From NCBI GenBank assembly GCA_036383255.1, contig DASVOS010000009.1, positions 212,110-248,027 on the forward strand: a stretch of DNA of 35,918 nt. The letters are read 5' to 3'. Positions 16,064 through 19,015 of this stretch are shown one piece after another. The notes under the pieces are model-generated. The model did not search any database, was not told where the DNA came from, and saw only the letters and a list, made by a program, of their open reading frames with translations. A program made the translations under genes and the position numbers. Positions within the stretch are counted from its first letter, which is position 1. Every line of letters starts with the position of its first letter. Source of the DNA: Gammaproteobacteria bacterium. Its GTDB lineage: Bacteria > Pseudomonadota > Gammaproteobacteria > Natronospirales > REEB76.

Positions 16064-16098
16064 AATCCCTAAACAACGTGACCTGTGAACCTGGAATA

Positions 16099-16202
16099 TG
16101 GCGGAGGGAGTGAGATTCGAACTCACGAAGGACTTCCGCCCTTGCCGGTTTTCAAGCCGCGCGACGCATGCGTCGCGCCTTAACCCGCTCGGCCAGCGAA
16201 TT
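16099..16202 (-). pseudogene. Degenerate tRNA-Ser (UGA) copy
   Basis: On the minus strand the D-arm start TGGCCGAGCGGG, the loop CTTGAAAA with anticodon TGA, a variable arm, the T-arm GTGAGTTCGAATCTCAC and a 3' end CCCTCCGCCA are all recognisable. However, the seven bases before the D-arm do not pair with the 3' acceptor strand (GGAGGGA would be required), the anticodon stem has mismatches, and a perfect 20-base palindrome (16159-16178) lies between D-arm and anticodon arm. It is very unlikely to give a functional tRNA. Confidence 0.75.
16159..16178. repeat. Perfect 20-base palindrome inside the tRNA-Ser remnant
   Basis: GCGCGACGCATGCGTCGCGC is identical to its reverse complement over all 20 bases. 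In the intact tRNA-Ser nearby the same place (between the D-loop and the anticodon stem) has only a few bases, so the palindrome looks inserted or expanded. Confidence 0.7.
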
Positions 16203-16211
16203 TAGAAAAGG

Positions 16212-16316
16212 TGGCGGAGGGGGTGGGATTACTCCGGGCATCCCTGCCCTTCGCCCCTACGGGGCCCGCGCTTCGCGCGGTTCCAAATCGCTCCCGGCGA
16301 TTTTGTCGAACCCACG
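16212..16316 (-). pseudogene. tRNA-Ser 3' fragment interrupted by a 75-base hairpin array
   Basis: The plus-strand pieces TGGCGGAGGGGGTGGGATT (16212-16230) and TCGAACCCACG (16306-16316) together make the T-arm and 3' acceptor end of a serine-type tRNA read on the minus strand. They are split inside the T-loop by about 75 bases (16231-16305). Nothing of the anticodon or D-arm remains next to it. Confidence 0.65.
16231..16305. repeat. REP-like insert of four consecutive hairpins
   Basis: Four inverted repeats follow each other: GGGCA/TGCCC (16236-16249, loop 4), GCCCC/GGGGC (16253-16265, loop 3), CCGCGC/GCGCGG (16266-16280, loop 3) and AAATCGC/GCGATTT (16285-16303, loop 5). The dense, short-loop layout resembles REP/BIME-type palindromic elements. 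It carries no coding potential I would trust. Relationship to named families was not tested. Confidence 0.6.
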
Positions 16317-16325
16317 ATAGTGAAT

Positions 16326-16415
16326 TGGCGGAGAGGGTGAGATTCGAACTCACGAGAAGCTTACGCCTCTGGCGGTTTTCAAGACCGCTGCCTTAGACCG
16401 CTCGGCCACCTCTCC
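16326..16415 (-). tRNA. tRNA-Ser (anticodon UGA)
   Basis: A complete class II tRNA of 90 bases with encoded CCA. The acceptor stem GGAGAGG pairs with CCTCTCC; the D-arm reads TGGCCGAGCGG; the anticodon loop CTTGAAA gives anticodon TGA, decoding UCN serine codons; a long variable arm and the T-arm GTGAGTTCGAATCTCAC follow. It starts 11 bases after the serS stop on the same strand, so enzyme and tRNA may be cotranscribed. Confidence 0.95.
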
Positions 16416-16426
16416 GAATGTGACGA

Positions 16427-19015
<2,589 letters not shown>

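Follow-up and report, generated by a model that had tools for sequence, protein, structure and literature searches.

The window analysed here is a stretch of 35,918 nucleotides from a gammaproteobacterial genome (G000), and the functional orientation of the locus is its minus strand. Read in this direction, serS lies directly upstream of an intact tRNA-Ser(UGA) gene, and a second copy of the 3' end of this tRNA follows a few nucleotides further on (Table 1). The copy is split within its T-loop: from 16316 down to 16212 the order is CGTGGGTTCGA, CAAAATCGCCGGGAGCGATTTGGAACCGCGCGAAGCGCGGGCCCCGTAGGGGCGAAGGGCAGGGATGCCCGGAGTA and ATCCCACCCCCTCCGCCA, where CAAAATCGCCGGGAGCGATTTGGAACCGCGCGAAGCGCGGGCCCCGTAGGGGCGAAGGGCAGGGATGCCCGGAGTA is the insert, in the following called E. 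When the insert is removed, the flanks join to ...GTGGGTTCGAATCCCAC..., which is a perfect T-arm. E itself forms four successive stems of 7, 6, 5 and 5 bp (minus strand, 5' to 3') and folds at -35.1 kcal/mol (z = -3.6), a value equalled by none of 200 shuffled sequences. The original prediction of a four-hairpin insert placed exactly in a tRNA-Ser T-loop is thus borne out. Its extent had been given as 75 bases (16231-16305); here, E comprises 76 nt (16230-16305), and one A can be assigned to either side.

Table 1. Features of the tRNA-Ser(UGA) locus in window coordinates.
Feature	Position	Strand	Evidence
serS (seryl-tRNA synthetase)	16427..17698	-	TIGR00414, 546.8 bits; shared synteny
Intact tRNA-Ser, anticodon UGA; its 3' end is copied by the unit	16326..16415	-	ARAGORN; Rfam RF00005, 58.6 bits
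9-nt spacer that separates the unit from the CCA end of the tRNA	16317..16325	-	sequence
Copy of the T-arm 5' half, CGTGGGTTCGA	16306..16316	-	sequence
Element E, 76 nt with four hairpins; splits the T-loop between positions 58 and 59	16230..16305	-	covariance model R1, 104.5 bits; alignments A1 and A2; covariation
Hairpin H1, AAATCGC/GCGATTT, loop CGGGA (contains GGA)	16285..16303	-	folding
Hairpin H2, CCGCGC/GCGCGG, triloop GAA	16266..16280	-	folding
Hairpin H3, GCCCC/GGGGC, triloop GTA	16253..16265	-	folding
Hairpin H4, GGGCA/TGCCC, loop GGGA (contains GGA)	16236..16249	-	folding
18-nt copy of the tRNA 3' end (T-loop position 59 to CCA), the TLR hallmark	16212..16229	-	sequence
Degenerate second tRNA-Ser(UGA)-like sequence; T-arm, 3' end and CCA intact	16098..16201	-	sequence

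That a tRNA-Ser is interrupted holds for the T-arm only. The split copy consists of the T-arm, the 3' acceptor strand and CCA, while the D and anticodon arms are absent; it is therefore a split tRNA 3'-end copy and not an interrupted whole tRNA. At this locus, ARAGORN and Rfam call only the neighbouring tRNA and not the split copy. The 3'-end copy ATCCCACCCCCTCCGCCA is identical to the corresponding end of the neighbour, ATCTCACCCTCTCCGCCA, at 16 of 18 positions, with two mismatches. An Rfam match to sX4 (34 bits, against a gathering score of 70) was dropped, as its best-aligned part is the tRNA-Ser. Beyond the unit, the degenerate tRNA-Ser-like sequence shows a 67-nt match to the tRNA query and a weak match to the tRNA-Sec model, and ARAGORN makes no call there. 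Between its D-arm and anticodon stem, at 16159-16178, lies a 20-bp perfect palindrome, GCGCGACGCATGCGTCGCGC, which occurs once in the window.

The window's own genome contains five copies of E. A search of the assembly placed units downstream of tRNA-Ser(CGA) on contig C5 (86% identity, E-value 5e-26) and of tRNA-Ser(GCU) on contig C11 (78%, 2e-15). The covariance model added a copy downstream of tRNA-Ser(GGA) on contig C17 and another near tRNA-Arg(ACG), which is interrupted by a further hairpin insertion. The boundaries are identical each time, ...TTCGA, E, ATC.... Since related copies adjoin other tRNAs in this and in many other genomes, the unit in the window is not a chance arrangement. 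In one own-genome copy (L004 1355-1530, contig C11) and one copy from another genome of the family (L348, G005), the H1 loop of E is in turn split by another small element of several hairpins that ends in ...CCGAGCTTAGAACG, is common to both genomes and contributes more hairpins, one of them with a GGA loop.

Alignments of 18 copies (A1) and of 50 diverse copies (A2) describe E as a dispersed multi-copy family under structural constraint. The units are approximately 65-95 nt long, have four hairpins and follow the consensus CAAAATCGCCGGGAGCGATTTTGAAC-hairpin 2-GGCCC(n)GGGCG-AGGGCAGGATGCCCGGAGTA. Compensatory changes occur in 19 of the 21 base pairs of A2, among them all five of the family's H2, and 96.5% of the cells are paired, compared to 74.5% in shuffled and 29-45% in slid controls. 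The scarcity of G-U pairs was considered as a sign of constraint at the DNA level and discarded, because tRNA acceptor stems at the same loci are equally low (1.9%).

Model R1, which includes the window sequence scored in Table 1, finds E in 169 of 369 sampled Gammaproteobacteria genomes (about 46%). The first genome-wide counts were made with a model that carries the flank GGTTCGA and is thus biased towards T-loops; R1 and a contig pattern search likewise favour TCGA flanks. With the flank-free model R2, which contains no E. coli sequence, E was found in 83 genomes of a phylum-wide sample of 398, among which are members of families beyond the Gammaproteobacteria. The suggested search in the own and related genomes thus returned many copies, a good number of them in tRNA-like sequence. 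As the unit does occur elsewhere, the objection that it might be confined to this locus fails, and its mobility stands. Copy numbers are highest in G263 (64) and G153 (53); both genomes contain runs of identical copies, and E was therefore active there recently. Many copies in G263 and G139 are embedded in larger repeats and may owe their spread to these. A phage collection yielded no match to E. In an E. coli genome collection, the window sequence had no match and a relative (L002) used as query did match. One family within the phylum and outside the class (f208) has many copies, often several per genome. Unannotated E-like copies with 76-79% identity also occur on large Pantoea plasmids (24 records), e.g., that of P. 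agglomerans (L368, NZ_CP143420.1).

It was originally proposed that E is a REP/BIME-like repeat, and a RAYT-type transposase, i.e., a Y1 HUH enzyme, was to be sought as its mover. E does resemble REP, BIME and REPIN sequences in that it is small, palindromic, multi-copy, dispersed and mostly extragenic, and Y1 proteins are encoded in 25 of 28 E-rich genomes. Against this stands the complete lack of Y1_Tnp (PF01797) matches in the window's own genome, with its five copies, and in G315 and G316, with 12 and 13 copies; for the own genome, a RAYT is excluded as mover on this ground. A REP, as defined in part in PMC3733652, is a single palindrome of 20-40 bp that bears GTAG or CGTC as a tag at one of its ends. 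E has four hairpins in 65-95 nt and enters tRNA loops in sense at GA^A (the caret marks the insertion point), and the window copy carries neither tag, its 76 nt beginning with CAAAA... and ending with ...GAGTA. With respect to the lagging-strand template, into which single-strand transposition of the IS200/IS605 type would insert, copies away from tRNAs are divided 55 to 41 (six genomes, terminus assumed opposite dnaA), which is no significant bias. The REP/BIME identity is thus not upheld, and we regard movement of the family by a RAYT as highly improbable. A MITE of a DDE transposon is not indicated either, with no terminal inverted repeat in E and no duplication at the empty helicase site described below.

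The insertion sites follow a clear pattern. Among 259 unique copies, 104 sit in a second 3'-end copy of an intact upstream tRNA, which may be a tRNA for Ser, Gln, Arg, Tyr, Pro, Val, Lys, Glu or Leu. Such units usually lie 50-90 nt 3' of the intact tRNA, and in most relatives this interval often holds a terminator, plus an inverted T-arm copy. Copies in T-loops adjoin at least 16 tRNA species. The last 18 nt agree completely with the unit's own upstream tRNA in 67 of 90 relatives, compared to a mean of 11.3 of 18 positions against other tRNAs. At other loci, the spare tRNA sequence is a 5' copy that precedes the intact tRNA, and E occupies the D-loop (TGGTCGA^A) or the anticodon loop (CTTGA^AAA, CTCGA^AAT) of tRNA-Ser; one spare tRNA (L231) carries E in both its D-loop and its T-loop. 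Copies of 5S rRNA and tmRNA 3' ends are occupied as well. Throughout, the insertion point is GA^A, without target duplication and mostly in sense. At T-loop-like sites, the sense orientation is strict (121 of 121, none antisense), even though TTCGAA is identical on both strands. When 12 genomes were scanned with the flank-free R2, 70 copies emerged, of which 23 have a tRNA at a distance of up to 300 bp, 20 of these in sense and three in antisense.

Two tmRNA loci were observed (L065 and L125), in both of which E stands behind the intact tmRNA; in L065, a 42-bp near-perfect palindromic terminator is followed by E and then by a diverged copy of the tmRNA 3' end. In three genomes (L202-L211 in G263, L266 in G326, L273 in G037), E is located amid an unrelated palindromic repeat, CCCTCTCCC...GGGA^E^...GGGAGAGGG.

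Exact empty sites in relatives document that E is an insertion between GA and A without target-site duplication. In a gene for a RapA-like helicase, one locus (L219) contains a 75-nt in-frame E between conserved helicase motifs, as placed by comparison with RapA. Two orthologues (L106 and L166, approximately 90% identity) are without it and read CGTGA^(A/G)AAGGCC across the join, so that the net difference is +75 nt with no duplication. A second E in the helicase gene is common to four genomes. Together with the multi-copy occurrence and the strong preference for tRNA genes, these sites support the view of a small palindromic mobile element that targets tRNA sequence. Two loci of G153 (L219 and L221, about 1.268-1.283 Mb) form a cluster of in-frame copies in the helicase gene and a neighbouring ORF.

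The shared synteny of serS and tRNA-Ser(UGA) allows the same comparison at the counterpart of the window locus. In G008 and G010, (G)AATCCATATCGCGTGAAAAC comes directly after the CCA of the tRNA and there is no second 3' end. In G003, the flank AATCCATATCGCGTGAAAAC comes after a second CCA, and the extra piece consists of a spacer, an inverted T-arm, GGTTCGA, E and a repeat of the tRNA 3' end. The latter has thus arrived together with the unit. It had been argued that E entered a redundant copy beside the intact gene, where it would be tolerated: the intact gene does adjoin, but in this best-resolved case the copy did not exist beforehand. Insertions at stable RNA genes bring along a duplicated piece of the RNA concerned, so that the essential RNA stays intact.

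Duplicated tRNA 3' ends are typical of integrative elements, and whole units are found in tandem arrays at two loci (L021 and L024). The second 3' end might hence be an att-site scar of a phage or island, or a product of tandem slippage, in which the hairpins drifted or were inserted later. This explanation would have to cope with cores of E in T-, D- and anticodon loops, in 5S copies and in coding genes, with 3' ends that match across 16 tRNA species, with empty-site loci that show no prior duplication, and with the phage collection that gave no match. We consider it quite unlikely.

The arrangement in the window has a counterpart in E. coli, in the sequences known as tRNA-linked repeats (TLRs). 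These have been on record since Egan and Landy in 1978 and Rudd in 1999, both as summarised in PMC8144298, and have been a puzzle ever since 1978. In the available part of that paper, TLRs appear as sequences in tRNA and rRNA operons, an E. coli or enterobacterial peculiarity whose function is called not known. E. coli K-12 has 22 of them, and the terminal 18-19 bp of each agree fully with the tRNA or rRNA upstream (PMC8144298). Among the E. coli TLRs, rttR at tyrTV, the arg operon repeats and those in the T1-T2 spacers of rrnA, rrnB and rrnD match the covariance model of the E family: R2 scores the three rrn spacers at 72.3 bits, rttR at 29 bits (E-value 8.5e-6) and the arg TLR at 23.9 bits (1.2e-4). 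As in the window, rttR and the arg TLR carry the same core at the T-loop position and an approximately 18-nt copy of the upstream tRNA at the 3' end. The window unit, too, lies 3' of an RNA gene on the same strand, 9 nt beyond tRNA-Ser(UGA). It differs from the E. coli tRNA TLRs and from most relatives in its brevity, with only these 9 nt as spacer, no terminator in them and no inverted T-arm, and from the former in its imperfect 18-nt match and in both GGA loops, which they have lost. From the R2 scores and the shared published traits, it follows that the window unit is a TLR, albeit a shortened one that has diverged slightly from its tRNA. The locus belongs with the E. coli TLRs, a category absent from the first reading. 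A motif upstream of the units, GGATGAGAA, is frequent among the relatives' loci and is also present in rttR.

The rrn spacers encode RrA, RrB and RrF (rrnA, rrnB and rrnD), which are transcribed by read-through of T1 (PMC8144298). They share with the window the core of E, the GGA loops and a copied RNA 3' end downstream of the intact RNA, whereas their target is 5S rRNA. In the available part of PMC8144298, they are described as conserved in Enterobacteriales only, while the core E found here is distributed over the Gammaproteobacteria and beyond. The E. coli rrnG operon provides a further syntenic empty site: its 5S is followed by the terminator AAGGCCATCCTGACGGATGGCC. In rrnA, rrnB and rrnD, 5S is followed by T1, by E lodged in a repeated 5S 3' end, and lastly by a terminator nearly the same as AAGGCCATCCTGACGGATGGCC. 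T1 plus E is therefore the difference between these operons, with T1 of rrnB inside the inserted piece and T2 as the ancestral terminator, which rrnG also shows. In K-12, the rrnB spacer between T1 and T2 (L374 840-912; also L370 and L371), which is part of many laboratory expression and cloning vectors, is hence a copy of a mobile element, and T1 itself lies within the piece that distinguishes rrnA, rrnB and rrnD from rrnG.

The position of T1 would also suit a module for RNA processing or termination, in which the copied 3' end guides an RNase, the terminator or inverted T-arm ends tRNA or rRNA transcription, and E is a spacer. Many relatives have a terminator between the tRNA and E, and a reading of the 3' repeat by RNase E has been proposed (PMC8144298). 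On the other hand, the window copy is preceded by 9 nt without a terminator, E occurs elsewhere without any 3'-end copy, and the most conserved letters of the family are in the loops of E. We therefore judge a role of this kind to be unlikely.

The conserved loop letters may point to an RNA-binding protein. GGA is present in the H1 loop of 256 and in the H4 loop of 253 of 268 copies, and in both loops of 247, whereas shuffled loop letters predict 22% for loop 1 and 30% for loop 4. The two GGA motifs are lost jointly (Fisher p = 8e-6, a value that is indicative only, the copies being related). GGA in hairpin loops is the signature of CsrA, and the window copy presents it in two apical loops, CGGGA of H1 and GGGA of H4. 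As GGA is near-invariant in loops 1 and 4, we infer that the ancestral module was probably a two-site CsrA-binding RNA. RrB binds CsrA in vitro in a manner that depends on the GGA motif (PMC8144298). Our best guess, drawn from sequence features, is that E acts as a CsrA-binding RNA module expressed by read-through. The presence of csrA was dropped as a predictor of E, as the gene is found in G000 and all E-positive genomes tested and also in nearly all E-negative ones. CsrA binding may not be the reason why the family persists: most E. coli tRNA TLRs are without GGA loops, their scores as CsrA RNAs are lower than 0.01, and deletion of RrA, RrB and RrF has modest effects only (PMC8144298). The GGA motifs could instead be needed for mobility.

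A rival view holds E to be a DNA element of a purely selfish kind, which would jump into hairpin loops or GA^A sites; its hairpins would serve mobility, and RNA binding would be incidental. Rickettsia palindromic elements offer a model, likened to E by description and not by sequence: they are small palindromic repeats that also occur in frame within protein genes. E does so in relatives, though not in the window copy: besides the helicase insertion, which L106 and L166 lack, the neighbouring ORF in G153 harbours three copies within a single frame of 368 aa, and copies away from tRNAs in this genome often measure 72 or 75 nt and are free of stop codons in at least one frame. A selfish element would further account for the copies amid other palindromic repeats, for the copy numbers of G263 and G153, and for direct E-E tandem arrays without spacer, which run head-to-tail (G142:C1:1407156-1407426, G153:C1:3570672-3571031, L159 and L163) and suggest either that new copies enter where an older one ends or that an intermediate is circular or multimeric. 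GNA triloops, which are stable in single-stranded DNA, make up 315 of the 443 triloops in hairpins of E copies. However, the Rickettsia elements belong to different bacteria, and E also targets the loops of tRNA genes. The constraint on GGA in loops 1 and 4 goes far beyond what palindrome mobility would obviously need, the two motifs are lost jointly, and stable RNA genes are hit preferentially in sense. We hold a purely selfish nature to be possible, yet doubtful.

For the window, we thus favour, at a probability of roughly 0.7, a TLR built from a mobile four-hairpin element of about 65-95 nt that occupies the T-loop between positions 58 and 59 of a second tRNA 3'-end copy and represents a putative CsrA-binding RNA. 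Read-through of the tRNA gene would transcribe E, and the GGA-bearing apical loops of H1 and H4 would offer two sites to CsrA/RsmA in the resulting RNA. Growth-coupled tRNA and rRNA promoters may in this way release a small RNA that titrates CsrA. The target of insertion may be the exposed non-template strand or the RNA itself, since the sense orientation is strict in RNA genes and loops are preferred.

A wider proposal is more tentative, and we hold it at slightly below even odds: TLRs, the E. coli rrn T1-T2 sRNAs and the in-frame coding repeats would constitute one mobile module. It would enter exposed loops of structured RNA genes at GA^A, namely the T-, D- and anticodon loops of tRNAs and 3'-end copies of 5S rRNA and tmRNA, spare the essential RNA by a duplicated target piece, and thereby seed CsrA-binding sRNAs under tRNA and rRNA promoters across the Gammaproteobacteria. 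The E. coli TLRs, RrA, RrB and RrF, and the binding of RrB to CsrA were already published (PMC8144298). Measured against the available part of that literature, the occurrence throughout the class and beyond, the tmRNA loci, the sites in D- and anticodon loops, in other palindromes and in frame in coding genes, the exact empty sites and the near-universal GGA loops are new; copies in D-loops, anticodon loops and coding genes are absent from its description of TLRs. With the TLRs placed in a class-wide mobile family that has defined insertion sites, empty-site controls, coding copies and GGA loops, their origin and function become directly testable.

As to the duplicated piece, a fold-back duplication at insertion would be a lead to follow. 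It is suggested by spacers that are long perfect palindromes in many loci (e.g., L065, L002, L003 and rrnB T1) and stand next to an inverted RNA-end copy; the statistics are mixed. The inverted T-arm is clear in many relatives, scores above 95% of the null in only 36% of 89 class-a loci, and the inverted 5S copy beyond the T1 stem of E. coli rrnB is weak (41 of 1000 shuffles as good); as a general rule it was dropped on these grounds.

Finally, csrA lies no more than a few hundred bases from copies of E at tRNA-Ser(GCU) or tRNA-Arg, both in G000 itself (G000:C11:185526-185945) and in G013, G027, G033, G142, G163, G263 and G326, where these copies follow the gene order csrA-tRNA-Ser-tRNA-Arg.
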